64,000 nt of DNA from Rhodovastum atsumiense. Lineage in GTDB: Bacteria; Pseudomonadota; Alphaproteobacteria; Acetobacterales; Acetobacteraceae. A model generated the notes under the pieces. That model saw only the letters and a program-made list of their open reading frames with translations. It was not told the origin of the DNA and did not search any database. A program made the position numbers and the translations under genes. The stretch is from positions 5,439,501-5,503,500 of the forward strand of contig NZ_OW485601.1 of the NCBI RefSeq assembly GCF_937425535.1. The letters are read 5' to 3'. Every line of letters starts with the position of its first letter. Positions within the stretch are counted from its first letter, which is position 1. Below, one piece after another: positions 3,548 to 43,082 of this stretch.

Positions 3548-3550
3548 CAC

Positions 3551-4105: not shown

Positions 4106-4123
4106 CCGGGTCCGACCCGCGCT

Positions 4124-6081: not shown

Positions 6082-6100
6082 GGCGGCACCACGGCCCGGT

Positions 6101-7399
6101 CTATCCTTCCGCCAGCGGCTCGCGGCTCGCGCGCACCCGCGCCACCCGTCGCCCGTCCATCTCCGTCACCTCGAACAGCCAGCCGGCGAAGACGATGCGG
6201 TCGCCCTGGCGCGGCACCCGCCGCAGCAAGGCCAGCAACAGCCCGGCGATGGTGTGGTAGCTGCCCGCCGCCGGCAGGTCCGGCAGCATCAGCCGCTCCT
6301 TCGCCTCGTCCACCGGCATCATCCCGTCCAGCAGGTACGTTCCCTCGACCGCCTCGATGCCCTCGCCACCACCCGGGGCGGCGTCGTTGGCGTCGCCGAT
6401 GATCGCTTCCAGCACGTCGGCCGCGGTCACCACGCCTTCGAAGCTGCCGTACTCGTCCAGCACCAGCGCCAGCCCCAGCGGATCGGATTTCAACCGTTCC
6501 AGCGCATCCAGCGCCGTCACCGTGTCGGGCATCACGATGGGCTGGCGCAGCGCCGCCCCGATCGACACTTCCTTGCCGTCCAGCACGCCATCCAGGATGT
6601 CCTTGGCCTGCACCACGCCGACGACGTTGTCGACGCTGCCGTCGCAGACCACGAAGCGGCTGTGCGGGGCCGATTTCAGCGTGGCCGCGATGTCGCGCGC
6701 CGGGTCGGTGCGGTCGATCCAGGCGATCTCGGTGCGCGGCGTCATGATCGCGCGCACCGGTTTGTCGGCCAGCCGCAGCACCCGCTCGATCATGTCGCGT
6801 TCCTCGCTTTCCAGCACACCGGTCTTCTCGCCTTCCACCAGCAACGCCTTCAGCTCCTCCTCGGTGACCGGCGGCGGCAGGTCCCGGTGCGCGCCGAAGA
6901 TGCGCAGCACCAGCGCCGAGGACTTGCCGAGCACCCAGACGAACGGGCGCGAGACCCGGGTGAGCCAGACGAGCGGGCCGGCAACCACCGCGGCGGTGCG
7001 CTCCGGGGACCGCAACGCCAGTTGCTTGGGCACCAGCTCGCCGATCACCAGTGTCAGGTAAGTGATCGCGATCACAACCACCGCGAGTGACAGGCTGGAG
7101 GCGAAGGGCCGCAGCCAGGTCACCTCTTCCAGCGCCGGACGGACGAAATCGGCGACGCGGGCGCCGCCGAACACGCCGGAGAGGATGGCGACCACCGTGA
7201 TGCCAACCTGCACCGTGGGCAGGAAACGCTGGGGATCCTCGGAAAGCTCCAGGGCCAGTGCAGCGCCGGCGACACCCTTGCGTTCAAGCACGGCGAGTCG
7301 GGCGCGGTTGGCGCTGACCAGGGCGAGTTCGCTCAGTGCGAACAGCCCGTTCAGCACGATGAGCAACAAAATGATGACCGAGTCGAGGACTGCTTCCAT
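6101..7399 (-). CDS. CNNM/CorC-type membrane protein (DUF21, CBS pair, CorC_HlyC)
   Basis: A 432-residue inner-membrane protein. The N-terminal DUF21 domain (about 1-190) has the expected membrane segments (LDSVIILLLIVLNGLFALSE then GITVVAILSGV). Two CBS repeats follow (about 205-335; RAIMTPRTEIAWID opens the first), then a C-terminal CorC_HlyC domain (about 345-425) ending in VTEMDGRRVARV. Proteins of this build are linked to Mg2+/Co2+ export or tolerance, although they are often named hemolysin-like. It stands alone, convergent with the secreted protein on its left. Length and domain order are normal for the family. Confidence 0.88.
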   Translation of the reverse strand: MEAVLDSVIILLLIVLNGLFALSELALVSANRARLAVLERKGVAGAALALELSEDPQRFLPTVQVGITVVAILSGVFGGARVADFVRPALEEVTWLRPFASSLSLAVVVIAITYLTLVIGELVPKQLALRSPERTAAVVAGPLVWLTRVSRPFVWVLGKSSALVLRIFGAHRDLPPPVTEEELKALLVEGEKTGVLESEERDMIERVLRLADKPVRAIMTPRTEIAWIDRTDPARDIAATLKSAPHSRFVVCDGSVDNVVGVVQAKDILDGVLDGKEVSIGAALRQPIVMPDTVTALDALERLKSDPLGLALVLDEYGSFEGVVTAADVLEAIIGDANDAAPGGGEGIEAVEGTYLLDGMMPVDEAKERLMLPDLPAAGSYHTIAGLLLALLRRVPRQGDRIVFAGWLFEVTEMDGRRVARVRASREPLAEG

Positions 7400-7589
7400 G
7401 ACATTCCACCATACAACGCAAGGCGAATCCCGGCACCGGGCCAGGTCGCCGGTGCGAGCGCTGCAGGGGGAGTGATCAATTTTTAAGATGACTCTCGATT
7501 TTCTGGGCTGTTTATGATTGGTTAACTAATCCATTTTGGCAACACCGGGGGTTGTTCCCCGGCGGTGCCGTACCCGGCAGGAGCCCCGC

Positions 7590-7913
7590 ATGGATCGGCC
7601 ATCCGCTGTTGTCATTCCCTTCCCCCGGCCGGCCGAGCCCGCCGCCGCGCCATCCCCGGCAACGCCGGACCCGCAGCAGCGGCTGCAGGCGGCGCTGGTG
7701 GCGCTGCAGGACGCGCTCGGGGCGCAGCGTGAAGCCATCGCCGGCTGGCGCAAGGCGCTCGGCGACCTGCAGGGCAGTGTACACGGCCTCGGCAGTTCAC
7801 TGAATTCCTACCAGGAGCGGCTCGGCACGCTCGGCACGCAGGTCACGGCGCTGAACACGCAGGCCCGCCGCCTCGAAGCCTGGGCGGACGGCGTCATCTC
7901 CCAGTCCCGCTAG
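7590..7913 (+). CDS. small coiled-coil protein, unknown
   Basis: A 107-residue soluble protein. The Pro/Ala-rich start (residues 1-30) contains VIPFPRP, and the rest is a long heptad-like helix (LQAALVALQDALGAQREAIA and GSSLNSYQERLGTLGTQ) typical of a coiled coil. It has no signal peptide, cysteine or known motif. ATG 7590 is chosen because GGCAGGAG lies just upstream; longer readings begin in non-coding sequence. It stands 49 bases before the aldolase gene on the same strand but has no clear link with it. A granule- or cell-envelope-associated helper protein is possible but not shown. Confidence 0.6.
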   Translation: MDRPSAVVIPFPRPAEPAAAPSPATPDPQQRLQAALVALQDALGAQREAIAGWRKALGDLQGSVHGLGSSLNSYQERLGTLGTQVTALNTQARRLEAWADGVISQSR

Positions 7914-9318: not shown

Positions 9319-11484
9319 TTACGCCTGAGCCTTCGCCTCGCGGCGCCGCGCGGTCAGGATGAACTCCGTATACCCGTTCGGCTGGCTGCGCCCCTTGAAG
9401 ATCAGGTCGCAGGCGGCCTGGAACGCCACCCCGTCATAGCCGGGCGCCATCGGCCGGTAGGCCGGGTCGCCGGCGTTCTGCCGGTCTACCACCACCGCCA
9501 TGCGCTTCAGCGTCTCCAGCACCTGGGCCTCGGTGGTCACGCCGTGGCGCAGCCAGTTGGCGATATGCTGGCTGGAGATGCGCAGCGTCGCCCGGTCCTC
9601 CATCAGCCCGACATCATGGATGTCCGGCACCTTGGAGCAGCCCACGCCCTGGTCGATCCAGCGCACCACGTAGCCGAGGATGCCCTGGGCGTTGTTGTCC
9701 AGTTCCTGCTGGATTTCCTCGGGCGACCAGTTCGGCCGGTCGGCGAGCGGAATGGTCAGGATATCCGAAAGCTTTGCCGGGGCGCGTGTCGCCAGGTCCT
9801 CCTGCCGGGCCGCGACGTCCACCTGGTGGTAGTGCAGCGCGTGCAGCGTGGCGGCGGTGGGCGAGGGGACCCAGGCGGTGTTGGCGCCGGCGCGCGGATG
9901 GCCGATCTTTTGCGCCAGCATGTCGGCCATGCGGTCCGGGGCCGCCCACATGCCCTTGCCGATCTGCGCCCGTCCGCGCAGGCCGCAGGCCAGGCCCACG
10001 TCGACGTTGTTGTTTTCGTAGGCGCCGATCCAGGCGGCGGCGCGCATGTCGTTCTTGCGCACGACCGCGCCCGCTTCCATCGAGGTGTGGATCTCGTCAC
10101 CGGTGCGGTCGAGGAAGCCGGTGTTGATGAACACCACCCGCTCGCGCGCCGCGGCGATGCAGGCCTTCAGATTGATGGTGGTGCGGCGCTCTTCGTCCAT
10201 GATGCCCATCTTGAGCGTGTTGCGGGCAAGGCCCAGCACGTCCTCGACGGCGGCGAACAGGTCGGAGGCGAACTGCACCTCGTCCGGCCCGTGCATCTTC
10301 GGCTTGACGATGTAGACCGAGCCGGCGCGCGAGTTGCGCAGCTTCCCGCCGCCCTTGAGGTCATGCAGCGCGATCGCCGAGGTGATCAGGGCATCGAGGA
10401 TGGTTTCGGGCACGTCGGCGCCCGTCGCGTCCTGCACCGCGTCGGTGTACATGTGGTGGCCGACGTTGCGGACCAGCATCAGGCTGCGGCCGGGCAGGGT
10501 GACGGAGGTGCCGTCCGGGGCGGTGTAGACCCGGTCCGGATTGAGCCGGCGCTCGAACTCCTTGCCGCCTTTCTCGAAGGTGGCCGACAGCGTCCCCTTC
10601 ATCAGGCCGAGCCAGTTCCGGTAGACCACCACCTTGTCCTCGGCGTCGACGGCGGCGACCGAGTCCTCGCAATCCATGATGGTGGTGACCGCCGATTCGA
10701 TCACGACGTCGGCGAGCCCGGCGGCGGAGGTCTTGCCGATCGGGTGGGTGCGGTCGAACCGCAGTTCGATGTGCAGGCCGTGGTTCTTCAGCAGCACCAC
10801 GGTCGGGTTGGCGGGATCGCCCTGGTAGCCGGCGAACTTGCCGGGCGTGACCAGCACGGTGTGCGCGCCCGATTCCAGCGTCACTTCCAGCCGTCCGCCG
10901 CGGACGGCGTAGCCGGCGACGTCGGCATGGCTCGCGTGCACCAGCGGCACGGCGGCATCCAGCACCTCGTGCGCCCGGGCGATCACCGCGGCGCCGCGCA
11001 CCGGGTTGAAGCCGCGGCCGCGCTCCGTGCCGTCGTCATCGCCGATGGCATCGGTGCCGTACAGCGCGTCGTACAGGCTGCCCCAGCGGGCATTGCCGGC
11101 ATTCAGGGCGTAGCGGGCATTGTTGACCGGCACCACGAGCTGCGGGCCGGCGATGCTGGCGATCTCGGCATCGACATGGGCGGTGCTGACCTGGAAGGCC
11201 GGCGGCTCGGGCACGAGATAGCCGATTTCCTTCAGGAACGCCGTGTAGGCCGCCTGGTCGATCGGCCGGGCCGGGTTGGCGGCGTGCCAAGCGTCCAGTT
11301 TGGCCTGCAGCGCGTCACGAACCTCCAGCAGGGCCTTGTTGCGGGGCCCGAAGGTGGCGACCAGCCGAGACAGCCCGGCCCAGAATGTGGCCGCGTCCAG
11401 ACCGGTGCCCGGCAGGGCCTCGGTCTCGATGAACTCCTTCAGGGGGCGCGACACCTTGAGGTCGCCTGCCTGCGCATGACCCAT
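9319..11484 (-). CDS. glcB: malate synthase G
   Basis: A 721-residue enzyme that condenses glyoxylate with acetyl-CoA to give malate (glyoxylate bypass, glycolate use). It is the single-chain G isoform, about 720-730 residues in the family. Seen: [18 protein letters not shown] in the barrel, [14 protein letters not shown] and [13 protein letters not shown], which hold the Mg2+-binding Glu and Asp, and the C-terminal VGCSKVPDI with [13 protein letters not shown] holding the catalytic Asp. ATG 11484 follows GGAGGAA at a good distance. It lies 170 bases behind a LacI-type regulator on the same strand. ActP and PrpE elsewhere in the window fit acetate or propionate use. Confidence 0.97.
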
Positions 11485-27621: not shown

Positions 27622-28236
27622 CTACGGCCCGGCTGCAAGCACCGCGTCGGCGCGGGCAAGGTCCTCGGGGCTGTTGACGTTGAAGAACGGGTCCGTCGTG
27701 TAATCGTCGAAATCCACCACGGCCACGCCCTGTTCGGCGGTCCAGCGGTCGATCTTGCGCATGCCGGCGCGCAGGGCGGCCTCCAGCGCGTCAGCCAGGA
27801 CGACCGGCCAGAGCGCGATCACCGGGTGGGTGCGCCCGCCGGTGGCGGCGCAGGCGATCGGCACGTCGACGGCACAGCGCGCGGCAATAAGGCGCTGCAC
27901 CAGATCGGGCGGCAGGAACGGGGTATCGGTGGGCACCGAGAGCACATCGGCGGCGCCCTGCGATTCTGCCCAGCGCATGCCTGCCAGCACGCCTACCAAT
28001 GGTCCTGGATTGTCCGGCAACGGGTCGGCAATGACCGGCAGGCCCCATGCGGCAAAGCGCGCCGGATCGCCATTGGCGTTCAGCGCCACCGCGCTCACCT
28101 GCGGGCGAATGGCGTCCAGCACATGGTCAAGCAGGGCGCGGCCGGCCAGAAGGCGCAACGGCTTGTCGCCGCCGCCCATCCGGCGGCCGAGCCCCCCGGC
28201 CAGCAACACCGCCGCGGGGCCTGTGTGAGAGTGCAT
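27622..28236 (-). CDS. mobA: molybdenum cofactor guanylyltransferase
   Basis: A 204-residue nucleotidyltransferase that joins GMP to molybdopterin to give the bis-MGD cofactor of the DMSO-reductase enzyme family. The GTP-binding signature LLAGGLGRRMGGGDKPL lies at residues 10-26, PGPLVGVLAGM and VPTDTPFLP are the middle motifs, and FFNVNSPEDL is the C-terminal family mark. The length is normal. No other moco gene or molybdoenzyme is in the window, so it serves enzymes encoded elsewhere. It follows the kdu genes on the same strand behind a strong hairpin. Confidence 0.93.
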   Translation of the reverse strand: MHSHTGPAAVLLAGGLGRRMGGGDKPLRLLAGRALLDHVLDAIRPQVSAVALNANGDPARFAAWGLPVIADPLPDNPGPLVGVLAGMRWAESQGAADVLSVPTDTPFLPPDLVQRLIAARCAVDVPIACAATGGRTHPVIALWPVVLADALEAALRAGMRKIDRWTAEQGVAVVDFDDYTTDPFFNVNSPEDLARADAVLAAGP

Positions 28237-28308
28237 GCCTTCATCCCCTCTGGTGGACTGTCAGGGTGCGGCATTTCCGCCATGGCGGATAGCCCGGTGA
28301 AACCGTGG

Positions 28309-28337
28309 CCCACCGGCCTGACGCACAGGCCGGTGGG
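28309..28337 (-). terminator. strong hairpin after the NTF2-like gene
   Basis: CCCACCGGCCTG and CAGGCCGGTGGG form a perfect 12-base stem with a 5-base loop, nine bases after the stop of the gene at 28346 (read leftwards). On that strand only a weak T-rich stretch follows. It separates the kdu transcript side from mobA. Confidence 0.6.
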
Positions 28338-28345
28338 ATCCGGCA

Positions 28346-28810
28346 TCAGACCGGGGGCAGCGGGCCGGACTGGCGGGCCAGCAGCTTCCAGTTGGCGCCG
28401 TACTTCTTCCAGACCTGCAGCACCGTGATATGCGCGGTGGAGGTCTTGCCGCCGGGCAGGTTGTTGACGGCATCGAAGACGTGGCGCACCACGGCGACGT
28501 CGCCGTCGACGAACACGGTCTGCTTCGAGAGATCGATCGACTTGAAGGCGTTGGTGCCGTCAAGCTCCTTCAGGAAATCCGCCTTGTCCTGCAGCCGTCC
28601 GTTGGAATGGCCATAGGTCAGGTCATCGGCCACCAGCGCCGCCAGGGCGGGGCCATTGCCGCTGACCATGGCGCTGCGCAGCGCCTCGACCGCGGCGGCC
28701 ACGGTGTCGGATTCGGCGGCGCGGGCCGGGGTGGCGATGGCGGCAACCGCCAGGGCCGCAGCACCGATGGCGCCAAGCGCGACGCGACGGCCGGACTCGA
28801 ATGAAGACAT
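28346..28810 (-). CDS. exported NTF2-like (SnoaL/DUF4440) protein
   Basis: A 154-residue protein with an N-terminal export signal (SFESGRRVALGAIGAAALAV, cleavage near ARAAE). The RR pair before the hydrophobic run suggests possible Tat export, but only part of the Tat consensus is present. The rest is an NTF2-like fold: LRSAMVSGNGPALAALVADD, LTYGHSNG, DVAVVRH and WKKYGANWKLLARQ. Such domains bind or isomerise small molecules and no activity is assigned. AAGGAA precedes ATG 28810. It is 85 bases behind kduD on the same strand, after a hairpin. Confidence 0.75.
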   Translation of the reverse strand: MSSFESGRRVALGAIGAAALAVAAIATPARAAESDTVAAAVEALRSAMVSGNGPALAALVADDLTYGHSNGRLQDKADFLKELDGTNAFKSIDLSKQTVFVDGDVAVVRHVFDAVNNLPGGKTSTAHITVLQVWKKYGANWKLLARQSGPLPPV

Positions 28811-28857
28811 CCTGTCGTTCCTTTTCGGAAGTGTTTTTCAGGTAAAATGCGGCAGAT

Positions 28858-28886
28858 CCGGCCGGGGACCATCCGGCCCCGGCCGG
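28858..28886 (-). terminator. GC-rich hairpin after kduD
   Basis: CCGGCCGGGG and CCCCGGCCGG form a perfect 10-base stem with a 9-base loop directly behind the kduD stop. No clear T-tract follows, so it may be a partial terminator or an mRNA end protector between kduD and the exported NTF2-like gene. Confidence 0.45.
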
Positions 28887-28895
28887 AGCCGCGCG

Positions 28896-29642
<747 letters not shown>

Positions 29643-29653
29643 CGGACCGTCCT

Positions 29654-30550
29654 TCAACGCATGTCCGCCACGGCGACATGGTCCATGTCGTCGAAGGTCT
29701 GGTTCTCGCCCACCATGCCCCAGATGAAGGTGTAGTTGGTGGTGCCGACGCCGGAATGGATCGACCAGCTCGGCGAGATCACCGCCTGCTCGTTGTGCAC
29801 GACGATGTGCCGGGTCTCCTGCGGCTGGCCCATCAGGTGGAACACCGCCGCGTCCGAGGCCAGGTTGAAATACAGATAGACCTCCATGCGCCGCTCATGC
29901 GTGTGGCAGGGCATGGTGTTCCACAGGCTGCCCTCGGCGAGCTTGGTCATGCCCATGCTGAGCTGGCAGGTGGGCAGCACGTCGGGGACGAAGAACTTGT
30001 GGATGGTGCGGCGGTTGGCGGTGCGGGCATCGCCGAGCGTCACCGAAGCGGCTTCCGCGAGCGTCACGCGACGGGTGGGGAACTGCCGGTGCGCCGGGGC
30101 CGAGTTGTAATAGAACTTCGCCGGCCGGGCAGGGTCGTCGCTGCCGAAACGCACCTCGCGCGCGCCGAGGCCGATATACAACGCCTCTTCGGAACCGATT
30201 TCATAGCGCGCGCCGTCCAGCTCCGCCCAGCCGGGACCGCCGATATTGATCAGCCCCATCTCGCGCCGTTCCAGGAAATAGGCGACGCCGTAGGACTTGC
30301 CGAGCGAGGCGGGCAGCTCCACCGGGGCAGTGACGGGCATGATGCCGCCGACGACGATGCGGTCGATATGGCTGTAGGTCATCGTCAGCGCGTCGGGGCG
30401 GAAGACTTCCTCGACGAGGAACTCGCGCCGCAGCCCGGCGGTGTCCAGCGTGCGGGCATGGTCGCTGTGGATGGCCTGGCGGGTGTCGATCACCGTCGCC
30501 GCCGGCGAGCCGGCCAGGGCGGCGGCATGGATGTCCTGACGTGTGTCCAT
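29654..30550 (-). CDS. kduI: 5-dehydro-4-deoxy-D-glucuronate isomerase with extended N-terminus
   Basis: A cupin enzyme of 298 residues that converts 5-keto-4-deoxyuronate, released from pectin or alginate-type oligouronides, to 2,5-diketo-3-deoxygluconate. The Zn site is [13 protein letters not shown] plus the later His in SWSIHSGVG, and the family ending FDDMDHVAV is present. KduI is usually 278 residues. Here about 20 extra residues precede the normal start, and the opening DTRQDIH is repeated as DTRQAIH at residue 22, so the N-terminus looks duplicated. GAGAGGAAA stands before ATG 30550, which supports the longer form. Confidence 0.95.
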
Positions 30551-30583
30551 GATTGTTTCCTCTCGGCAAGCAAAGGGGGAAAT

Positions 30584-30625
30584 GCGGCTGGCGTACCGGC
30601 CGGTTGATGACCGGGCGCCAGCCGC
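30584..30625 (-). terminator. hairpin between kdgT and kduI
   Basis: GCGGCTGGCG and CGCCAGCCGC form a 10-base perfect outer stem around an inner CCGG/CCGG stem. It lies just behind the kdgT stop and 34 bases before kduI. On the coding strand ATTTCCCCCTTT follows. It may lower read-through from the transporter into the enzymes or mark an RNA processing point. Confidence 0.5.
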
Positions 30626-30632
30626 GAGGCGA

Positions 30633-31640
30633 TCAGTCCGCGTGCGCCATCTGCGGCACCGGGTCATCCGCCCGTGCCTGCTCGGCCATGCCCTTGCCGA
30701 ACGCCTTGTACCAGATGCCGGTGAGGATCGGCACCACGATGGAGGTGACGATGATGCAAATGGCAACCAGCACCGTGGCGCTCTGCGCCGTGGGCACGAA
30801 CTGCGGCGCCACCGCGGCGATCGCCAGCGGGTTGGCCGCCGCCGCGCCGGCGGTGGAGGAGGCGGCGAGGCCGGCCGTGCCGGTGCCGCGGCCGATGAAC
30901 TTGTCGGCCAGGATCAGCGGGATGCCGGTCAGCACGATCACCGACAGCGCCAGCACCACGCCCAGGCCGGCCAGCGGCGAGAGCAGCGTGCTGAGGTCGA
31001 TCGTGTTGCCCAGGGCGAAGGCGAAGAACGGGATCATCAGGATGCCGCCCGGCGTGAAGAAGGCGCGCAGCTTCGGATCGAGGTTGCCCAGCGCGAAGCC
31101 GGCCAGGAACGGCAGCACGGCGCCGATGAAGATCTGCGGCTCGAAATGCGCGACCCCCGAGGCGCCGAGGATGACCATGCTCATCAGCGGACCGGACTCG
31201 ATGGAGGTCAGCACGAAGGCGCCGGCTTCCTCCTTGGTGCCGTAGGTCTGCATCAGCGAGGCGTAGAGGCCGCCATTGGTCATGTCCATCGCGCAGACGA
31301 TGGCCAGGATCGACAGCCCGGCGAAGAAGCCGGTCTGGATGCCCTCGGCGGGGATGAACAGCGAGGTCACCATGACGATGGCCCAGGCCGCGAGCAGCTT
31401 GGTCAGCACGATGGTGCCCGACTTGCGCAGCACGGTGCCGGTGGCGCTGAGTTTGATCGAGGCGCCCATGCAGAAGAACCAGACCGCCAGGATCGGAATG
31501 ACCCCGGTCATGATTCCCATGGTGAAGCCTTTGAAGTAGGCGGGTGCGCCCGGCACGAAGGTCTTGCACAGCGCGCCGAGCAGCAGCGGCATCAGCATCA
31601 GGCCGCCAGGGATCCTGTCGACGAAATCCTTGATTCTCAT
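30633..31640 (-). CDS. kdgT: 2-keto-3-deoxygluconate permease
   Basis: A 335-residue inner-membrane proton symporter of the KdgT family that imports KDG. Typical blocks: [20 protein letters not shown] at the start, [33 protein letters not shown] and [16 protein letters not shown]. About ten hydrophobic segments are visible. ATG 31640 (GGAAGAGG upstream) matches the family start; the reading from 31775 is not conserved. It stands between kdgK and kduI on one strand, so import, conversion and phosphorylation of KDG are encoded together. The C-terminus (about 20 residues) is polar and cytoplasmic. Confidence 0.95.
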
Positions 31641-31799
31641 TGCAACGGGCCTCTTCCGGTGACGTTTTTTGCAGTTGAAGCTTCGGCGCGGCACGCCCCG
31701 TGCGGGGGAAGGCAGCGCAGACTCGGCGGCGGCGTGCGGCCAGCGAGTGGGGGAGCTCCGATCCCGCCGGCGCAAGATAGCTGGCGGTTTTTCGGTGCG

Positions 31800-31814
31800 A
31801 ATTCAAAATGAATT
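31800..31814. promoter_or_regulatory. palindrome upstream of kdgT
   Basis: AATTCA-AAA-TGAATT is a perfect 6-base inverted repeat in an otherwise GC-rich gap between kdgK and kdgT, 160 bases before the kdgT start. It could be an operator or promoter element for a separate kdgT-kduI-kduD transcript. No regulator is assigned. Confidence 0.3.
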
Positions 31815-31841
31815 TGGCAAGGCACGTCCAGGCTTCCCTCT

Positions 31842-32825
31842 CTAGTCGGTGGCAGACCCGGACGGTTGCAGACAAAGCCTCGGCATGGCCTCGCGCGGAA
31901 TTACCGCGCCGCGATGGCGGATGACGGTGCCGGCCAGGGCATGGCCGACGCGCGAGGCGGCGATGGGATCGGCCCCGGCCAGGCGGGCGGCGACATAGGC
32001 GGCGGAGAAACTGTCACCGGCCGCGGTGGTGTCCACCACCTCCGCCACCGGCTCGGCGGCGATCACCGCGTCCACTCCTTCGGCCTGAACATGGCAGGCC
32101 GGCTCGGCAAGTTTGGCGACCCGCTCGGCAACGCCTGCTTCCCGCAGCCGCGCCAACAGGCCTTCCGGCGTCGGATCCTCGTACAGCAGGGCATGGTCCT
32201 CGGTGCTGGCCAGCACGATGTCTGCGCGCGCGAACATCGCGGCGTAGACCCGGCGCGCCCGCGCCCGGTCGGGCCAGCCGCGCGGGCGGAAATTGGTGTC
32301 GAACACCACCCGGCCACCATGCGCGCGCAGGCGGTCCAGCGTGTCGAACAACCGGGCCTGCCCGGCATCGTCGAACAACGACAGAGTGATGCCGGAAAGA
32401 TAGAGCAGGTCGTAGCCGACCAGTGCCGCCTCGGTCGCCGCCGTGTCGGGCAGATTGAACAACTGGCGCACCGGGGCGCTGTCACGCCAATAGGAAAAGC
32501 GGCGCTCACCGCGTGCATCGGTCTGGATCAGATACAGCCCGGGTACCTTTCCGGGCACCCTGGCCACTGCCCCGGTGCCGATCCCCTCGGCCTGCCAGGC
32601 TGCCAGCATCTCGGCACTGAACGGATCGTCGCTCAAGGCAGTCACGTAATCGGTTTCAACGCCAAGCCGTGCCAGATACACGGCGGTATTGAGCGTGTCT
32701 CCGCCGAAGCCGCGCGTCAATGTCCGATCGGGGCGTTCCACCAGTTCGATCATGCATTCGCCGAGGCTGGCGACACGGACCTTACCCGAAACAGGTTGGC
32801 CCGGATTGGTCTGGCCGACACTCAT
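31842..32825 (-). CDS. kdgK: 2-keto-3-deoxygluconate kinase
   Basis: A 327-residue PfkB-family sugar kinase that makes KDPG from KDG and ATP. Seen: GECMIELVE, the substrate-side GFGGDTLNTAVYLARLG, FDTNFRPRGW and the catalytic DTTAAGDSFSAAYVA with its Asp base. ATG 32825 opens MSVGQTNPGQ; some upstream residues could be included from ATG 32840 without changing the domain. It is the gene nearest to the divergent GntR/FCD regulator, with a 127-base shared promoter gap. Its product needs a KDPG aldolase, for which the gene at 7963 is a candidate. Confidence 0.93.
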   Translation of the reverse strand: MSVGQTNPGQPVSGKVRVASLGECMIELVERPDRTLTRGFGGDTLNTAVYLARLGVETDYVTALSDDPFSAEMLAAWQAEGIGTGAVARVPGKVPGLYLIQTDARGERRFSYWRDSAPVRQLFNLPDTAATEAALVGYDLLYLSGITLSLFDDAGQARLFDTLDRLRAHGGRVVFDTNFRPRGWPDRARARRVYAAMFARADIVLASTEDHALLYEDPTPEGLLARLREAGVAERVAKLAEPACHVQAEGVDAVIAAEPVAEVVDTTAAGDSFSAAYVAARLAGADPIAASRVGHALAGTVIRHRGAVIPREAMPRLCLQPSGSATD

Positions 32826-32898
32826 GGCCGTCTCTTTCATCTTGAGGCCGGTAGCGTGCCGAGGCTGCGACAGGCCACCACCTCCCCTTTGTCTTCCA

Positions 32899-32915
32899 GT
32901 GTATGGTAGTGTATA
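32899..32915. promoter_or_regulatory. direct repeat in the kdgK / gntR divergent gap
   Basis: AGTGTAT occurs at 32899-32905 and again at 32909-32915, so the copies are spaced by ten bases, one turn of the helix. It is in the gap between kdgK and its divergent GntR-type regulator and is AT-richer than the surroundings. It is a candidate operator or promoter core for both genes; that the neighbouring regulator binds it is an inference. Confidence 0.35.
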
Positions 32916-32952
32916 TGGGTTGCGCCCAGCAAGTCTTTTTGAGGGAGGCCGC

Positions 32953-33630
32953 ATGGGAACGACCATCGCACCGACTGCGGAATCCGCGGCACGCAAGCTG
33001 GAACGGGAATTGCGGCGCGCCATCATCGATCTCGAAATCGTTCCGGGCGCGCGGCTCTCGGAACAGGAGATCGCCGAGCGCTACGGCGTCTCCCGCCAGC
33101 CGGTGCGCGAGGCCCTGATCGGGCTCGGCCGCACCGGTCTGGTCTCGGCGCTGCCGCAGCGCGGCACGGTGGTGGTGAAGATCTCCACCCAGACGATGCT
33201 GCAGGCCCGGTTCGTGCGGGAATCGATCGAATCGGCGGTGGCGCGGCAGGCGGCGCTGAACTTCGATCCCTACAACCGCGCCCGCCTGGCCACGCTGCTG
33301 GCGCGCCAGGGCGAGGCGGCGCAGCGTGGCGACTCCGATGCGTTCCGGCGCGACGACGAGCTGTTCCATGCCGCTATCGCCGACGGCGCCGGCTGCCCGT
33401 TGGCCTGGAGGACCGTCAGCGACCTCAAGGCGCATCTCGACCGCGCCTGCCGGCTCAGCCTCGCGGGGCCGAAGCCGCTGCAGGCACTGGTGGACCAGCA
33501 CGCCGCCATTGTCGCTGCCATCGACGCGCGCGATCCGGACGCGGCCGAGAGGGCGATGCGCCAGCACCTCACCGAACTCCTGCACGCCCTGCCCGAGATG
33601 GAAGAGCGTTACCCGGAGATGTTCGAATAA
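32953..33630 (+). CDS. GntR-family regulator, FCD sensor domain
   Basis: A 225-residue DNA-binding protein. The winged helix-turn-helix occupies residues 10-75 (GARLSEQEIAERYGVSRQPV followed by REAL), and the all-helical FCD ligand domain about 85-215. The FCD metal-site residues appear in RDDELFHAAIADG and DQHAAIVAAIDARD. GAGGGAGG precedes ATG 32953. FCD-type regulators near uronate genes often sense a pathway intermediate, so control of the divergent kdgK-kdgT-kduI-kduD set is likely. That is an inference from position. Confidence 0.9.
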   Translation: MGTTIAPTAESAARKLERELRRAIIDLEIVPGARLSEQEIAERYGVSRQPVREALIGLGRTGLVSALPQRGTVVVKISTQTMLQARFVRESIESAVARQAALNFDPYNRARLATLLARQGEAAQRGDSDAFRRDDELFHAAIADGAGCPLAWRTVSDLKAHLDRACRLSLAGPKPLQALVDQHAAIVAAIDARDPDAAERAMRQHLTELLHALPEMEERYPEMFE

Positions 33631-35817: not shown

Positions 35818-36777
35818 TCAGGTGGCCTCGAACAGCGCCGCCCGCAGGTCAACCGGACGCGGGCACATCCGGTTTTCGATCAGGAAGGCCATGTCACGTT
35901 CCAGCGATTCCAGGTCGGCCGGCGTCAGCCTCGTGTGGAACTCCGCCCAGGAATAGAGCGTGCGCCCATCCTCCAGGCTGAAGCCATTGGCCTTGCAGGC
36001 GATGCGGATGGCGGCATCGGGATCGGCGGCGACGAAGGCGACCGCCTCGGCCTGGGCCTGCTGGTAGAGCCGCACCAGATCCGGCCGCTGTGCCACCAGA
36101 TCGGCCCGTGCGCAGGTGATCGTCACCGGCTGCAGCAATCCCGGCCGCGTTGGCACTTCCCGCGCGCCCTGCCGCTGCGCCGCCAGGATCAGGTCCGCGG
36201 CCAGCACCGCCGCGTCCACCTGGCCCGATTGCAGCGCCGCGAGCGAGACCGGCAACTGCATGTCGAGGAAGGCGACGTCGCCGATGGAGAGCCCCGCGTC
36301 CTGCAACGCCGCGATCAGGTACTGGTGCAGCGCGGTGCCCTTGACCCCGGCGACGGTCCGGCCCTTGAGGTCGGCCACCCGGGTGATCCGCGGATCGCGC
36401 GTCAGGATGGCGGCAAGCTTGCGGTTGCGCGCGACGGCGCCGGTGATGCGCAGCGGATTGCCGTTGGCCAGCGCCATGATCACCGAGGCCGGGTTCATCA
36501 CCGCGCCGATGTCGAGCGATCCCGCCGCCAGGGCCTGCGCCTGCAGCACGCCCGAGGTGATGTCGTGCCAGACCACCTCGAAGCCGAGCGGTCGCAGCCG
36601 CTGCTCCAGCAACTGGCGCTCGCGCATGACGATCTGCGGCACGTTGAAGGGCTGGCGCACATAGGAGACGTTGAACGCCTGGGCCGCCCGCCCCGGACGG
36701 CGCAGGCCGGACAGGCTGGCCACGCCGAGTCCGACCATCAGGCCACGACGCGACAGGACGTGCGGGAAAGCGTTCAT
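35818..36777 (-). CDS. ABC transporter substrate-binding protein, NitT/TauT/SsuA-like
   Basis: A 319-residue periplasmic binding protein. The N-terminus (SRRGLMVGLGVASLSGL) is a Tat-like signal with an RR pair. The mature part starts near AQAFNVSYVRQPF and has the SsuA/TauA/ThiY-type pattern SGVLQAQALAAGSLDIGAVM, LKGRTVAGVKGTALH and LQSGQVDAAVLAADL. Such proteins bind sulfonates, nitrate, pyrimidines or other small anions, and the ligand cannot be told here. Its ATG overlaps the ATPase stop by four bases (ATGA). It is the last gene of a run that begins with a HydE-type radical SAM gene. Confidence 0.88.
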   Translation of the reverse strand: MNAFPHVLSRRGLMVGLGVASLSGLRRPGRAAQAFNVSYVRQPFNVPQIVMRERQLLEQRLRPLGFEVVWHDITSGVLQAQALAAGSLDIGAVMNPASVIMALANGNPLRITGAVARNRKLAAILTRDPRITRVADLKGRTVAGVKGTALHQYLIAALQDAGLSIGDVAFLDMQLPVSLAALQSGQVDAAVLAADLILAAQRQGAREVPTRPGLLQPVTITCARADLVAQRPDLVRLYQQAQAEAVAFVAADPDAAIRIACKANGFSLEDGRTLYSWAEFHTRLTPADLESLERDMAFLIENRMCPRPVDLRAALFEAT

Positions 36778-37601
36778 CTTTCGGGTTCTCCGATCTGTTC
36801 GGACAGCGTTCGGGCCGGTGGCGGCGCGGCGCCGCGGGTCGCCCGGGCCAGGCTCTCCAGCACCAGCGCCTCGATCCGGCCGGCGACGTCCGGACCGAGC
36901 GGCGGACCGCCCGGCGGCGAGCGCACCAGGACACTGGCGGCGATGCGGCCACCGGCGAGCACCGACACCCGGTCGGCGAGCCGCACCGCCTCGGCGAAGT
37001 CGTGCGTCACCAGCACCGTGGTCGGCGCGACCCGGCCGCGCAGCCGGGCGATCTCGTCCTGCATCTGCCGCCGCGTCAGCGCATCCAGCGCCCCGAGCGG
37101 CTCGTCCATCAGCAGCAGCTCGGGTTCGCGCATCAGCGCCCGCGCCAGCGCCACGCGCTGCGCCATGCCGCCCGAAAGCTGCCCCGGCCGCAGCCTCGCG
37201 CAATCGTCGAGCCCCACCAGGGCCAGCACCGCCGCGATGCGCCGGTCTTCCTCCGGACGCGACAGGCGGAAGCGCCGCAGCGCCAGGCGCAGATTTTCGG
37301 CGACGCTCGCCCAGGGCAGCAGCAGGTGCTCCTGGAACACCATCCCGAGGCGGGGCCATGCGCCGCCGGGCGGGGCCGGCCGGAAGGTCACGCGCCCGCC
37401 ATCCGGCCGGTCCAGCCCGGCGATCAGCCGCAGCAGCGTGGTCTTGCCGCAGCCGCTGTAGCCGAGGATGGCGTGGAACTCGCCGGGGGCAATGACCAGA
37501 TCCAACCCGTCCAGCACCTGCACGGGCGCCCCATCCGGCCGGACGAAGCCGCGGCGCAGGCCCGACAGCTCAACTTCCAGCAAGGCCGGGTCCGTTCGCA
37601 T
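36774..37601 (-). CDS. ABC transporter ATP-binding protein, NitT/TauT type
   Basis: A 275-residue ATPase that drives the importer. Walker A GYSGCGKTTLL near residue 48, Q-loop GMVFQEHLLLPW, signature LSGGMAQRVALARALM and Walker B LLLMDEPLGALD, with the switch His in VLVTHDFAEAV, are all intact. The phrase LLPWASVAENL is typical of SsuB/TauB-like subunits. Its start lies inside the permease gene (32-base overlap) and its stop overlaps the binding protein start, so the three subunits are made together. Confidence 0.94.
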   Translation of the reverse strand: MRTDPALLEVELSGLRRGFVRPDGAPVQVLDGLDLVIAPGEFHAILGYSGCGKTTLLRLIAGLDRPDGGRVTFRPAPPGGAWPRLGMVFQEHLLLPWASVAENLRLALRRFRLSRPEEDRRIAAVLALVGLDDCARLRPGQLSGGMAQRVALARALMREPELLLMDEPLGALDALTRRQMQDEIARLRGRVAPTTVLVTHDFAEAVRLADRVSVLAGGRIAASVLVRSPPGGPPLGPDVAGRIEALVLESLARATRGAAPPPARTLSEQIGEPER

Positions 37602-38364
37602 TGCCGACCGTTATACGTGCCAGCAAAACGAACAGCCAGTCGGCCAGGAAGCCGAGCGTGCCGATCACCAGGATCGCCGCATAGACGATGTCGCTGCGGG
37701 CCAGCGTCTGCGCGTCCATCACCAGATAGCCGAGCCCGACCGAGGTCGCGATCAGCTCAGCCCCGACCAGCGCCCGCCAGCAATTGCTGAAGGCAAGCCG
37801 CAGCCCGGCGAGGAAGGTTGGCAGCGCCGCCGGCAGGATGATGAAGCGCACCCGCTCCGCGCCGGTGAGCTGCAGCGTGCGCGCCATTTCCAGCAGTTGC
37901 GGCCGCACCGAATCGAGCCCCGCCATGGTGTTGAGCAGGATCGGGAAGAAGCTCGCCAGCACGATGACGGTCCACTTCACCGCTTCCCCCAGCCCGAACC
38001 ACAGCACCAGCAGCGGCACCAGCGCCAGCGGCGGGGTGGCACGCAGGAAATCGAGGGGAAAGCGCAGGCAGCGCGCCAGCAGCGCCGAGCGGCGCAACGC
38101 CACCGCCAGCGGCACCGCCAGCGCCACCGCCAGCACGAAGCCGACCGCGACACGCTGCGCGCTTGCCAGCACGTGCCGCCCAAGCTCACCCGAGCCCGCC
38201 AGCTCGATCCCGGCGGCGAGCACAGCGGAGGGCGCGGGCAGCAGGAAGGCGTTCACGGCCCCCAGCCGCGCGGCGATTTCCCAGGCGGCCAGCAGGCCCA
38301 GCGGCAGCGCGGCCCCGGCCAGCAGGTGCCCCGATGCCCGGCGCATGGGGCTCCCGCGCCTCAC
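37570..38364 (-). CDS. ABC transporter permease, NitT/TauT type
   Basis: A 264-residue membrane subunit with five to six helices. The coupling loop that contacts the ATPase appears as NCWRALVGAELIATSVGLGY, preceded by LPAALPTFLAGLRLAF, matching the BPD_transp_1 EAA motif of SsuC/TauC. The start is GTG 38364, which overlaps the hydE stop as GTGA; ATG 38346 is an alternative six codons later. The overlap puts the importer under direct translational coupling to the radical SAM gene. Confidence 0.92.
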   Translation of the reverse strand: MRRGSPMRRASGHLLAGAALPLGLLAAWEIAARLGAVNAFLLPAPSAVLAAGIELAGSGELGRHVLASAQRVAVGFVLAVALAVPLAVALRRSALLARCLRFPLDFLRATPPLALVPLLVLWFGLGEAVKWTVIVLASFFPILLNTMAGLDSVRPQLLEMARTLQLTGAERVRFIILPAALPTFLAGLRLAFSNCWRALVGAELIATSVGLGYLVMDAQTLARSDIVYAAILVIGTLGFLADWLFVLLARITVGNANGPGLAGS

Positions 38365-39401
38365 CCGGCGAGCGCCTCCACCGGGCGCTTGCGCGAATGG
38401 CCCGGCCCGTCATCGACGCTGCGTCCGAGCATCTCCAGCCGCCCGACGATGCACAGGGCGCATTGCCCGCCGGTCTCGTCCACGCAGGGCTTGTCGGGAT
38501 AGAGCATGTAGTCGCGGCGGTATTTGCCGGGCGTGCTGTTCGGCATGAACACGTTGGCCCCGCGCTGCAGCGCGAGGTCGCGGCCGGGCGGGTTGGTGAA
38601 CACCGCATCGAAGGCCGTGGTCGCCGGGATATGCGCGTCCGGATTGGCGAGGCGCAGCGCCGCCAGGGCGACGAAATGCATGTCGGGATCGTCGGCATAG
38701 GCGTTGGACGCCCCGCCAAGCGGGGTTTCCGGGTGCGGGATGAACGGGCCGATGCCGATCATGTCCAGATCGAGCTCGCGGCACAGCAGGATGTTGCGCG
38801 CCAGCACCTCGGGCGTCTCGCCGGGCACACCGATCATGAAGCCGCTGCCGACCTGCACCCCGAGCGCACGCAGCGCGTGCAGGCAGTCCAGCCGCTCGGC
38901 CAGCGAGCAATCGGGGTGGATGCGCGCGAACAGCGCCGGATCGCTGGTCTCGAAACGCAGCAGGTAGCGGTCCATGCCGCATTCCCGCCAGTACGCATAG
39001 ACCTCGTGCGGCCGGTTGCCGACCGACAGCGTCACCGCAAGCGAGGTCTCGGCCTTGATGCGCCGGACCAGCTCGCCCAATCGCCGGTCGCCCGCGGGCG
39101 ATGATGCCTCGCCCGACTGCAGGACGATGGTGCCCTGGCGCCAGCCTTCCATCCGGCGGGCGACCTCCATCACCTCGTCCGCCTCCATGCGGTAGCGGTT
39201 GATGGCGCGGTTGGAGACGCGGATACCGCAATAGAGGCAGTCATTGGCGCAGATATTGGAGAACTCGACGATGCCGCGCAGGTGCACCGCCTCGCCCATG
39301 CGCTCGCGCCGCAGCGCGTCGGCGCGGGCGAACAGCGCGGCGCGCTCCGGACCACGGGCCCGCAGCGCCGTCAGGACCTCGTCCACTGCCTGCAGTTCCA
39401 T
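38361..39401 (-). CDS. hydE: HydE-type radical SAM protein
   Basis: A 346-residue radical SAM enzyme. In [FeFe]-hydrogenase makers HydE helps to build the diiron subcluster. The SAM cluster is Cys51/Cys55/Cys58 in ICANDCLYC, a CX3CX2C. Further HydE marks are IVLQSGEASS, RYLLRFETSDP, GSGFMIGVPG, DMIGIGPFIPHPETPL and IPATTAF. Cys306, Cys314 and Cys317 near the C-terminus have the CX7CX2C spacing of the second cluster known in Thermotoga HydE. BioB has a different start motif, and PylB is nearest otherwise. GGAG precedes ATG 39401. No hydF, hydG or hydrogenase gene is in the window. Its stop overlaps an ABC permease start. Confidence 0.87.
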   Translation of the reverse strand: MELQAVDEVLTALRARGPERAALFARADALRRERMGEAVHLRGIVEFSNICANDCLYCGIRVSNRAINRYRMEADEVMEVARRMEGWRQGTIVLQSGEASSPAGDRRLGELVRRIKAETSLAVTLSVGNRPHEVYAYWRECGMDRYLLRFETSDPALFARIHPDCSLAERLDCLHALRALGVQVGSGFMIGVPGETPEVLARNILLCRELDLDMIGIGPFIPHPETPLGGASNAYADDPDMHFVALAALRLANPDAHIPATTAFDAVFTNPPGRDLALQRGANVFMPNSTPGKYRRDYMLYPDKPCVDETGGQCALCIVGRLEMLGRSVDDGPGHSRKRPVEALAG

Positions 39402-39626: not shown

Positions 39627-42600
39627 TTACTCCGCCGCCAGTGCCGGCCGGGCGTTCAGCTTGCGCAGGGCGCGGTCGATCCACAGCTTGGTCAGCTTCT
39701 CCGGCAGGCTGTTCTGCCGCAGTCGCTCGTTCAGGGCCGGGAAGTCCACCCGGTCGAGCGGCTGGTCCTGGTTGAAGCAGGAGAAGATGACGGTCCGCTC
39801 CCCGGTCTCGGGGTCGATCTGCGGCTGCAGGCACTGCGCGCAGACTTCCTTCATCATGCACTGCATCGGCGAGTTGATGCTGCCGATCGCGGTGTGGCCC
39901 GGCTTCAGGTAGGGTTGCAGCACGCCTTTCCGGGCGACGCCGACCGCCTGCATCATCCGGTCGGAGCCGATGACGATCAGGTGCTCGGCCTCGTTCAGCG
40001 GCACCGCCTGTTCGCCCAGCCGCCCGGCGCCATAGGCCGCCATCGCCTGCACGATGTTGCCAACGAAGCTGCGGTCCTGCGGGCGGGCCGGGGTGAAGCC
40101 GGGGGCCTCGTCGCAGCACCAGACGATCACGTCGGCGGCGCGCTCGATTTCCTCGATCTTGTAGCGGTCGCGCATCGCCTTGTAGCCGGCGAAGTAGATC
40201 ACCCGGCTGCCGGCGGCGCGCAGCGCGGCGCCGATCGAGAACAGCACGGCGTTGCCCAGGCCGCCGCCGACCAGGGCGACGGTGCTGTTGGCGTGGATCT
40301 CGGTCGGCGTGCCGGTCGGGCCCATCAGCACCACGTTCTGGCCGGGCTGCAGCGTGGCGCAGAGATCGGAGCTGCCGCCCATCTCCAGCGCGATCACCGA
40401 GATCAGGCCGCGGTCCTTGTCGGTCCAGGCCCCGGTCATGGCCAGGCCTTCCATGGTCAGCAGGGTCGGCGGCAGGCCCGGCTCCTCCAGGCGCTGCGAG
40501 GCCATCTCGTAGTTCTGCAGCCGGTAGAACTGGCCGGGGCGGAAGGAGCGGGAGGCGGCGGGTGCGCGCAGCACCACTTCCACGATGTTCGGGGTCAGCC
40601 GGTTCACCGCGTGCACGCTGGCCTGCAGCGTGTCGCGGCACTGCGCGATCAGCTCGGCGCCGGAGAGGGAGGAGGCGGGATCGCGCCCGGCCAGCACCTG
40701 GCTGACCAGCGGATAGCCGCGCTTGGCGCTGCCCATGGCCTTGACCACGTTGCCGAAGAAGCTCGGGTGCAGGTCGCCGAAGAAGCTGATGAAGCGGCCT
40801 TCCTCGGTGCGGTGCATCAGGATGTGGTTGTCGTCGGGCTTGGCCAGCGAGCGCACCGGCGTCACCGGGTTGCCGGCCTCGTCCACCGCCTGGAAATACT
40901 TGCCGTCCAGCCGGATCCGCCCGTCCTCGCGCGCGAGCACGGTGTTGGGCTGGGTGCCGGCGGCGACCAGCACGGCGCGGGCGGGCAGCACCACCTCGGT
41001 GCCGTCGGCCCTGGTGCAGCGCAGTGCCGCGGCGTGGCCGAAGCGGTCGACCTCGACGGCGAGCGGGGCAAGCCCGGCGGCGAAGTGCACGCCCTCGGCC
41101 AGGGCGTGCGCCACTTCTTCATGGTTGAGCGTGTAGGACGGGCTGTCGGTCAGCTTGCGGCGATAGGCGACGGTGGCGCCACCCCAGGAATCCAGCAGCG
41201 GCGCGAAGCGCGGCGCGCGGCCTTCGGCGGCGGCGGCCTCGCGCTCGGCGCGGAGTGCCGCGGCGTGGGCCAGGAATTCCTCGGCGACCCCGGTTTCTTC
41301 CTCGGTCCAGGCGGCGCGCACCGCCTGCTCGCCGCGCTCGGCGACCAGCACGCCGTAGCGGGTGGCGAATTTCTCCACCTGCCGCACGTAGTAGGCCAGG
41401 CTCTCGGTGGCGGTGTCGACCGCGGTCAGGCCGCCGCCGATCACCACCACCGGCATGCGGATCTGCAGGTTGGCGATCGACGACATCTTGGCCGCCCCGG
41501 TGAGCTGCAGGCCCATCAGGAAGTCGCTGGCCTGGCGCACGCCGCGGGCGAGGCCGTTGGGCATGTCGATCACGGTCGGCCGGCCGGCGCCCATGCACAG
41601 CGCGACGTGGTCGAAACCCATCGTCCAGGCGTCGTCGATCGACAGCGTGGCGCCGCCGCCGAAGCGCACGCCGCCGAAGGCGGCGAACTGGGCGCGGCGC
41701 TCCAGCAGGATGCGGATCAGCTTGAGGTAGTTCTTGTTCCAGCGGACGGTGATGCCGTACTCGGCGACGCCGCCGAAGCCGGCCATCACGCGGTCATCGA
41801 GGTTCTCGAACAGCGTGGCGGCGTCGCGCACCGGGGCGTTCGGGTCGATCCCCAGCGGCTCCAGCTTCAGCCCGTCGATGGCGACCACGGTATGGCCGTC
41901 GTTCATCAGGTGGTGCGCCAGGGTGAACCCGGCCGGGCCGAGCCCGACCACCAGCACCTTGCGCCCCGAATCCGGCAGCGGCAGCGGCCGGCGGATGTCC
42001 AGCGGGTTCCAGCGCGTCAGCAGCGCGTAGATCTCGAAGCCCCAGGGCAGCGACAGCACGTCCTTGAGGATGGAGGTCTCGGCCTGCGGGATGTCGACCG
42101 CGTCCTGCTTCTGGTAGATGCAGGCCTTCATGCAGTCGTTGCAGATGCGGTGGCCGGTGGCCGCCATCATCGGGTTGTCGACGGCGATGGTGGCGAAGGC
42201 GCCGAGCACCGAGCCCTGCGCGCGCAGGGTGTGCATCTCGCTGATCTTCTCTTCCAGCGGGCAGCCGGCGAGGGTCACCCCGAACACCGACTTCTGGAAG
42301 GCGCCGGTCTTGCGGTCCTTCAGGCCCTTGCTGCAGGAATCCTTGCCCTGGGTGTGGCACCAGATGCAGTAGTTCATCTGGTCCAGCGCCTGCGTGCCGG
42401 TCATGCCGTGGTCGGTCAGCGCGAAGCCGTCGCGGGCGCGCCATTCCTGCTGCGGCAGGCAGTGCATGGTGACACCGTGGCGCTCCACGGTCTTCAGTGG
42501 TACCAGGTTCTGCGGATCGACCTTGTGCGGCACGCCGAACAGGGTGCCGCCGGCATGGAAGGCGCGGCCTTCCGACGTCAGCGTCGCCCAGGCGGCGTAG

Positions 42601-43082
42601 CGCAGGGCGGTGTCGAGCCATTCGGTGCGCTGGTTGCGCTCCCAGGCCTCGACATGGGTGGCGAAGGCGATCTCGGTCAGCGCCTCGCCCATCATCTGCT
42701 CGAGCTCGGCGCGCAGGGCGGCGCCGTCGAAGCCGGCGGGATCGGCGTATTTCTTGACCGCCTGGCGCTGTACGAAAAGCCGCTTGCAGGCATGCACCGG
42801 ATCGAGCCGCTTCGTGCGCGCCACCACCGCGTCGAGCGCGTCCTCGATGCCGAACAACTCGGCGACGAATCCGTCCAGGATCGGCCCGAGGCTGGTGATC
42901 AGGTGGCTCTCAGCGAGGCGGTCGAGCGCGTCGGGGGCGGCGCGGGCGGTCAGCAGGCGCTCATGCAGGGCAGGGTCCTGCGCCGCGACCTCCTGCAGGA
43001 AGCGCTTGTCGAGCGCGATCAGGCCATCGCGCGTGGCGAGCGAGGCGAAGGTCGCGCCGAAGCCCAGGGTTGAAGCGTCCAT
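39627..43082 (-). CDS. 1151-residue FAD / iron-sulfur oxidoreductase, Nfn/GltD-PyrK-like fusion
   Basis: A very large cytoplasmic flavoprotein. An N-terminal part (about 1-360) carries cysteine groups: CIWCHTQGKDSC, CPLEEK and CNDCMKAC, probable iron-sulfur ligands. A GltD/DPYD-like FAD-NAD(P) module follows, with VVGLGPAGFTLAHHL near 375 and VVVIGGGLTAVDTATE near 545. The C-terminal third is a ferredoxin-reductase/PyrK-like module: FRPGQFYRLQNYE, ALVGGGLGNAVL near 935 and CMMKEVCAQC with a fourth Cys in FSCFNQD near 1070-1100. This order equals NfnB plus NfnA joined in one chain, with an extra N-terminal domain. The electron donors and acceptors are unknown. It is upstream of hydE on the same strand. 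Confidence 0.75.
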   Translation of the reverse strand: MDASTLGFGATFASLATRDGLIALDKRFLQEVAAQDPALHERLLTARAAPDALDRLAESHLITSLGPILDGFVAELFGIEDALDAVVARTKRLDPVHACKRLFVQRQAVKKYADPAGFDGAALRAELEQMMGEALTEIAFATHVEAWERNQRTEWLDTALRYAAWATLTSEGRAFHAGGTLFGVPHKVDPQNLVPLKTVERHGVTMHCLPQQEWRARDGFALTDHGMTGTQALDQMNYCIWCHTQGKDSCSKGLKDRKTGAFQKSVFGVTLAGCPLEEKISEMHTLRAQGSVLGAFATIAVDNPMMAATGHRICNDCMKACIYQKQDAVDIPQAETSILKDVLSLPWGFEIYALLTRWNPLDIRRPLPLPDSGRKVLVVGLGPAGFTLAHHLMNDGHTVVAIDGLKLEPLGIDPNAPVRDAATLFENLDDRVMAGFGGVAEYGITVRWNKNYLKLIRILLERRAQFAAFGGVRFGGGATLSIDDAWTMGFDHVALCMGAGRPTVIDMPNGLARGVRQASDFLMGLQLTGAAKMSSIANLQIRMPVVVIGGGLTAVDTATESLAYYVRQVEKFATRYGVLVAERGEQAVRAAWTEEETGVAEEFLAHAAALRAEREAAAAEGRAPRFAPLLDSWGGATVAYRRKLTDSPSYTLNHEEVAHALAEGVHFAAGLAPLAVEVDRFGHAAALRCTRADGTEVVLPARAVLVAAGTQPNTVLAREDGRIRLDGKYFQAVDEAGNPVTPVRSLAKPDDNHILMHRTEEGRFISFFGDLHPSFFGNVVKAMGSAKRGYPLVSQVLAGRDPASSLSGAELIAQCRDTLQASVHAVNRLTPNIVEVVLRAPAASRSFRPGQFYRLQNYEMASQRLEEPGLPPTLLTMEGLAMTGAWTDKDRGLISVIALEMGGSSDLCATLQPGQNVVLMGPTGTPTEIHANSTVALVGGGLGNAVLFSIGAALRAAGSRVIYFAGYKAMRDRYKIEEIERAADVIVWCCDEAPGFTPARPQDRSFVGNIVQAMAAYGAGRLGEQAVPLNEAEHLIVIGSDRMMQAVGVARKGVLQPYLKPGHTAIGSINSPMQCMMKEVCAQCLQPQIDPETGERTVIFSCFNQDQPLDRVDFPALNERLRQNSLPEKLTKLWIDRALRKLNARPALAAE

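Follow-up and report, generated by a model that had tools for sequence, protein, structure and literature searches.

An ABC importer encoded in one overlapping gene cluster with the [FeFe]-hydrogenase maturase gene hydE in Rhodovastum atsumiense

The hydE cluster and the hyd genes of the genome

The stretch of DNA analysed here, referred to as the window, comprises 64,000 nucleotides (nt) of Rhodovastum atsumiense (contig NZ_OW485601.1, positions 5,439,501 to 5,503,500) and carries, at 35818-39401, four overlapping reverse-strand genes for a radical S-adenosylmethionine (SAM) maturase and an ATP-binding cassette (ABC) importer. The first of these, hydE (38361-39401), is predicted to encode a radical SAM [FeFe]-hydrogenase maturase of 346 amino acids (aa), and is followed on the same strand by the genes for a 264-aa NitT/TauT-type permease (37570-38364; read from a GTG start, with an alternative ATG at 38346), a 275-aa ATPase (36774-37601) and a 319-aa NMT1/SsuA-like periplasmic binding protein (35818-36777). 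The TGA stop of hydE and the GTG start of the permease gene share a GTGA at 38361-38364, the permease and ATPase genes overlap by 32 nt, and the ATPase stop overlaps the binding protein start in an ATGA. A Pfam scan of the four proteins returned Radical_SAM, BPD_transp_1 (PF00528, 96.2 bits), ABC_tran (PF00005, 109.5 bits) and NMT1 (PF09084, 62.2 bits), and all three importer proteins exceed the Pfam gathering scores that place them in the NitT/TauT superfamily. The binding protein carries at its N-terminus the residues SRRGLMV, which we take to be a Tat (twin-arginine translocation)-like motif. An initial annotation, made from the window alone, had described this overlapping arrangement and both cysteine motifs of the HydE-like protein (CX3CX2C and the C-terminal CX7CX2C), and in these respects it is confirmed.

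The HydE protein scores 285.8 bits against TIGR03956 (rSAM_HydE), above the equivalog cut-off of 254.6, and falls far under the cut-offs for PylB (121.8 against 348.2 bits), BioB (85.8 against 225 bits), HmdB and HydG. Its best solved relatives are the Thermotoga maritima HydE structures in the PDB (E = 1.5e-86), and the radical SAM CX3CX2C motif and the equivalents of T. maritima S108, T134, R155, R159, M291, Y303 and Y306, which we take to form the HydE substrate pocket, are all identical. T134, R155, M291, Y303 and Y306 do not vary across 83 aligned HydE proteins, 82 of which have R159 and 67 S108.

The assembly of the genome (G000) spans 7.42 Mb and has a completeness rating of 100%, and the window lies on a contig of 6.48 Mb. 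A genome-wide search found no second HydE, the next match scoring 42 bits and lying at the hydG locus, and identified two [FeFe]-hydrogenase HydA proteins (294.5 and 290.9 bits), one HydG (534.4 bits) and one HydF (544.3 bits). All of these lie elsewhere in the genome, with no HydA, HydG or HydF match over cut-off inside the window. Gene calling places them in an aspA-hydF piece (L112), a hydB-hydA2 piece (L111) and a piece with a NuoE/F-like gene, hydA1 and hydG (L110), where the name hydB is used here for the gene of a protein that combines NADH_4Fe-4S, Fer4_20 and Pyr_redox_2 domains. A complete maturation set is present in scattered chromosomal pieces of this genome, and the protein encoded in the window is, as assigned by sequence, its ordinary and sole HydE. 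With two HydA, HydG and HydF in the same genome, this HydE presumably serves them, and it would act on the product of HydG in [FeFe]-hydrogenase assembly. The initial annotation had read HydE as an orphan in a pathway other than that of hydrogenase, naming the presence of hydF, hydG and an [FeFe]-hydrogenase at other sites of the genome as its refutation; the genome-wide search found all of them, and the orphan reading was rejected. Its observation that the surroundings contain neither a hydrogenase gene nor a further maturase gene stands for the 64-kb window and fails for the genome as a whole.

Directly beside hydG and hydA1 in L110 (G000:C1:2776000-2795000), positions 3134-7805 carry a NifH-like gene, two genes of the nitrogenase component 1 type and, after them, a gene for a solute-binding protein. 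The NifH-like and component 1-type proteins score below the NifH, NifD and NifK cut-offs, and the genes represent an uncharacterised nitrogenase-like system.

Gene order in the genus and in other HydE loci

Among 147 relatives, HydE was found at E ≤ 1e-60 in nine genomes, four within the genus (G000 and the congener drafts G003, G005 and G006) and five in other families of the class, and the binding protein was found at E ≤ 1e-50 in the same four genus genomes and in no others. HydE, [FeFe]-hydrogenase and the binding protein co-occur in four of the seven genus genomes; the searches detected none of them in G001, G002 or G004, which are rated 100, 88 and 94% complete. The exact chance of such a split (4/4 against 0/3 in seven related genomes) is 1 in 35, a figure weakened further by shared descent. 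Of 397 sampled genomes of the family, only the same four gave a HydE match.

In G003, G005 and G006, the genes hydE-permease-ATPase-binding protein-aspA-hydF are contiguous on one strand, so that the importer lies among hyd genes in more than one species. In G005 and G006 the pair hydB-hydA comes directly after hydF; the G003 contig breaks off within hydB, and a hydA lies on a separate contig. The 4-nt overlap of hydE with the permease gene recurs in G003 and G005, and the ATPase and binding protein are fused in G005 into one open frame of 572 aa. In G006, hydE and the permease gene are separated by a gap of 38 nt (L113, ~10861-10903) containing a repeated ATGACAACGACC-like unit, in every copy of which a start codon is soon followed by a stop. 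Against TIGR03956, the HydE proteins of G006 (281.3 bits) and G005 (279.0 bits) pass the cut-off, and the shortened frame of G003 (244.2 bits) fails it. The hydE-permease-ATPase-binding protein order, which the initial annotation had proposed to check across genomes, is kept in all four HydE-bearing genomes of the genus and is not unique to this strain. The genes that form a single run in G006 sit in G000 in three places (hydE with the importer, aspA-hydF, and hydB-hydA2), with the hydE-importer unit intact; by comparison with the congeners and with Oleispirillum (below), we infer that the run is ancestral and was later split in G000.

HydE loci were surveyed more broadly in the best 80 of at least 537 HydE-encoding candidate stretches. 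Downstream sequence of 4 kb or more is available for 63 of these 80, and flanks of that length on each side for 52. A strong HydA2 match is found in the flanks of only two of these 80 loci, L032 from Oleispirillum naphthae (71% identical to HydA2 of G000) and L030. The O. naphthae operon reads hydE-hydG-aspA-hydF-hydB-hydA on one strand and resembles the genus arrangement in having the same maturases, with aspA beside hydF; the AspA proteins of G006 and L032 both pass the NF008909 subfamily cut-off and fail TIGR00839. It differs in that the genus has the permease, ATPase and binding protein genes between hydE and aspA, and in that the set is divided in G000, with hydG beside another hydA. Comparison of the two orders shows that the importer stands in the position of hydG.

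A HydG model run at E ≤ 0.001 on G003, G005 and G006 detected no HydG, the sole and weak matches being HydE itself. In a control set of 50 genomes of HydE loci, the completeness of which is not reported, HydG was found in 46 at E ≤ 1e-40, with 45 over the cut-off, and G787, G798, G807 and G813 gave no match. As G798 (locus L030) has the same contig and position as G005 and is counted as that genome, HydG is found in 46 of 49 genomes outside the genus. The three congener drafts are 80, 90 and 91% complete, and the chance of missing HydG in all of them would be ~0.002 if the misses were independent, which those of genes on one island are not.

Searches for the binding protein outside the genus returned more distant relatives. 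A search of 385 class genomes at E ≤ 1e-45 gave matches in three, namely the window's own genome and two at 38% identity, with none at 57% or above in the other 384. Ten of the 50 HydE-bearing genomes matched at E ≤ 1e-40, one of them (G798) at 57% and the other nine at 37-42%; eight of these nine are labelled Pleomorphomonas and one (L023) Proteobacteria only. No permease and binding protein genes were found past hydG in L020-L025, L028 and L031, where hydE, hydF and hydG are present, although L023, L024 and L025 end soon after hydG. HydE is encoded at E ≤ 1e-40 in six of 72,556 plasmid records, all below 60% identity. Full Hyd maturase sets have been described in alphaproteobacteria such as Pleomorphomonas in an article with no occurrence of the word transporter in its main text (PMC4967309). 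Titles and abstract openings in the literature, with few subscription journals among them, pointed to no article describing an importer for hyd maturation or the hyd genes of this genus, and passages of PMC10715153 and PMC8777916 contained nothing on the [FeFe]-hydrogenase of Rhodovastum.

Two further features of the window lie near the cluster. Upstream of hydE, at 39627-43082, a gene encodes a 1151-aa flavin oxidoreductase (Pyr_redox_2, 46.6 bits; Fer4_20, 22.7 bits, below the gathering score), and gene calls of the congeners show no such long gene adjoining hydE. Genes at 27622-33630 probably serve ketouronate catabolism: they include a KduI/IolB match and genes for a short-chain dehydrogenase and for proteins resembling a 2-keto-3-deoxygluconate permease, a sugar kinase and a GntR regulator, all names except KduI coming from reading the translations.

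The binding protein and its cargo

The nearest solved relatives of the binding protein are SsuA and TauA, with E. coli SsuA (2x26) as the best PDB match. The importer belongs by sequence to the same superfamily as SsuABC and TauABC but falls short of the families themselves: the binding protein scores 122.4 bits with SsuA_fam (cut-off 163.5) and 47.3 bits with the taurine binding protein model (cut-off 304.25), the permease scores 153.1 bits with SsuC (cut-off 347), and the ATPase is likewise below the Ssu and Tau family cut-offs. In Xanthomonas citri SsuA, the contacts to the sulfonate are described as Gln36, Gly68, Gly86 and Ser141 (PMC3839906), and those of TauA as Gln30, Gly61, Gly79 and Thr132, with the amine held through Glu106 and Asp205 (PMC6906117). 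Mapped by alignment onto the window's binding protein, Gly68 is kept (G76), Gly86 becomes N95 and the Ser141/Thr132 position becomes A149; the Gln36 position adjoins an alignment gap that permits no call. At the Ser141/Thr132 position the congeners have V, V and L, and all four paralogs compared have Thr. This pocket comparison with SsuA and TauA, which the initial annotation had proposed, finds the sulfonate-holding Ser/Thr missing, and the replacement of the hydroxyl residue by A, V, V and L makes a sulfonate cargo unlikely.

In a tree, the hyd-linked binding proteins group together as a single clade (support 1.000), and all four share three cysteines (C222, C261 and C305 of the window's protein) that occur in none of the four paralogs and in none of five further Pleomorphomonas proteins aligned. 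An AlphaFold2 model of the binding protein, built from three sequences, was too poor to place these cysteines (mean predicted local distance difference test score, pLDDT, 56.1; predicted template modelling score, pTM, 0.41). The paralogous importer of the same genome (L120; G000:C1, ~440-442 kb) and the Pleomorphomonas importers share the permease-ATPase-binding protein order, and their binding proteins are 34-42% identical to that of the window; they differ in lacking the three cysteines and, of those examined, only that of L016 (a Pleomorphomonas draft) lies near hyd genes. L016 was first taken as a second independent case and then dropped, as its proteins are 54-64% identical to the paralogous importer of G000 and 36-48% to that of the window, and its binding protein groups with the Pleomorphomonas proteins not linked to hyd genes, in a different subfamily.

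One of the five Pleomorphomonas proteins (L140, from the draft G793) has W70, H71, N95 and the missing Thr in common with the hyd-linked clade and joins it with support 0.999; no hyd genes were found in the 20 kb fetched around it. The permease-ATPase-binding protein set to which it belongs (L145, 2316-5887) stands next to the gene for a 350-aa protein with no Pfam match and near a gene that we take from its sequence to be MetH-like. As a clue to the cargo, this neighbourhood proved uninformative.

Possible roles of the importer

We consider the importer to be a lineage-specific part of [FeFe]-hydrogenase assembly or use, which it would feed or support with a small precursor, and give this reading a rough probability of 0.58. 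The importer genes would have joined the hyd operon in a common ancestor of the hydrogenase-bearing members of the genus, at the place that hydG holds in the Oleispirillum operon, and would now serve [FeFe]-hydrogenase assembly or use in functional coupling with it, most likely by taking up a small compound, a precursor or a nutrient, that is consumed in the HydE step or immediately ahead of it. An analogy is offered by the AspA/fumarase-family gene that stands directly beside hydF in G000 and its congeners, as in the system in which AspA gives ammonium for the dithiomethylamine (DTMA) ligand in the HydF step, serine and ammonium being inputs of H-cluster assembly (PMC11736057); the main text of that paper, unlike the present case, mentions no transporter. 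As the aspA-hydF piece fits a role of AspA at the HydF step, the hydE-importer piece suggests by analogy a cargo used at or before the HydE step. The proposal of the initial annotation that the importer is tied to the HydE pathway holds as a hypothesis, with the order kept in four of four genomes, the hyd operon in three congeners and the unit intact in G000, and its narrower form, in which the importer feeds HydE itself, is unproven.

Several observations weigh against an importer role in maturation. A similar permease-ATPase-binding protein set lies near hydE in two of the best 80 loci, L030 (which is G005) and L016, and the importer type was not found in 49 of the 50 HydE-bearing genomes at E ≤ 1e-40, which means that H-cluster assembly in general does not need it. 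The hyd-linked cases all belong to one genus and may represent a single insertion inherited with its neighbours. Two of the congener HydE copies are imperfect: that of G005 (L114, 9902-10933) lacks the C-terminal CX7CX2C cysteines, with the radical SAM cysteines and pocket positions retained, and that predicted in G003 (L115, 5758-6648) is missing, at a minimum, the segment that aligns with residues 221-264 of the window's HydE. Draft errors are a possible cause, and the G003 draft has Ns in its binding-protein gene and may owe its short HydE to misassembly. An Rfam scan at the gathering score found no family at 33-44 kb of the window, and so no hint of the cargo, and among L113, L114, L115 and L120 it found nothing but signal recognition particle RNA in L115.

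The main rival, possible yet clearly less probable, is that a NitT/TauT importer inserted once into the hyd operon of the genus ancestor and was kept for use elsewhere, with no part in assembly. The restriction of the hyd linkage to one genus agrees with such a bystander, as do the abundance of superfamily binding proteins (at least 32 candidates in G000) and the related importers of G000 and Pleomorphomonas that have no hyd neighbours. Yet the order persists although the protein sequences have drifted to 56-72% identity, three congeners (100, 88 and 94% complete) lack both importer and HydE, and nothing would favour keeping a bystander joined to hydE in G000, where the unit is intact although the remaining hyd set is scattered. 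We regard as unlikely an importer for anaerobic, hydrogen-linked physiology, such as the uptake of an electron acceptor or a fermentable compound, that is co-expressed with the hyd genes and chemically separate from H-cluster assembly: it shares one gene run with the structural hydB-hydA in two congeners, but in G000 it is joined to hydE rather than to hydB-hydA, and the run contains no catabolic enzyme gene, aspA being the sole other metabolic gene. The estimates for our reading and its rivals overlap and do not sum to 1.

Far less probable still is that import replaces HydG, with the importer of the HydG-less congeners bringing the source of a carbon monoxide (CO)- and cyanide (CN)-bearing iron unit, or the diatomic ligands, to HydE and HydF. 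The slot that the importer occupies and the failure to find HydG in three of three HydE-bearing draft congeners, against its presence in 46 of 49 others, would fit this, and in the absence of HydG, HydE with HydF is described as giving ~1% HydA activation, a level that doubles when CO or cyanide is supplied (PMC9431212). The complete G000 genome has both importer and HydG, however, and hydG may be unbinned in the incomplete drafts. To our knowledge, no transporter carries a CO/CN iron complex of this kind. Scarcely any weight is left for a HydE repurposed for a pathway unrelated to hydrogenase, which the empty surroundings within the window had suggested; it is already contradicted by the gene content of the genome, the kept active-site positions and the place of hydE at the head of the hyd operon in the congeners.

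The locus carries a practical message and, if the importer is read, as we prefer, as part of hydrogenase assembly or use, a biological one. A lone hydE calls for a genome-wide search before it is labelled an orphan. Assembly of the H-cluster is thought to use only intracellular tyrosine, cysteine, serine, ammonium, iron and SAM. A dedicated importer within the maturation operon, at the place of hydG in drafts with no detectable HydG, would point to an external input to this pathway, and the one binding protein provides a concrete target for finding it. Should the replacement of HydG prove true, HydE and HydF would build the H-cluster from imported material, either a source of CO/CN or an iron synthon taken up ready-made, and the supply of an organometallic enzyme centre would then be nutritional and might rest on cross-feeding.

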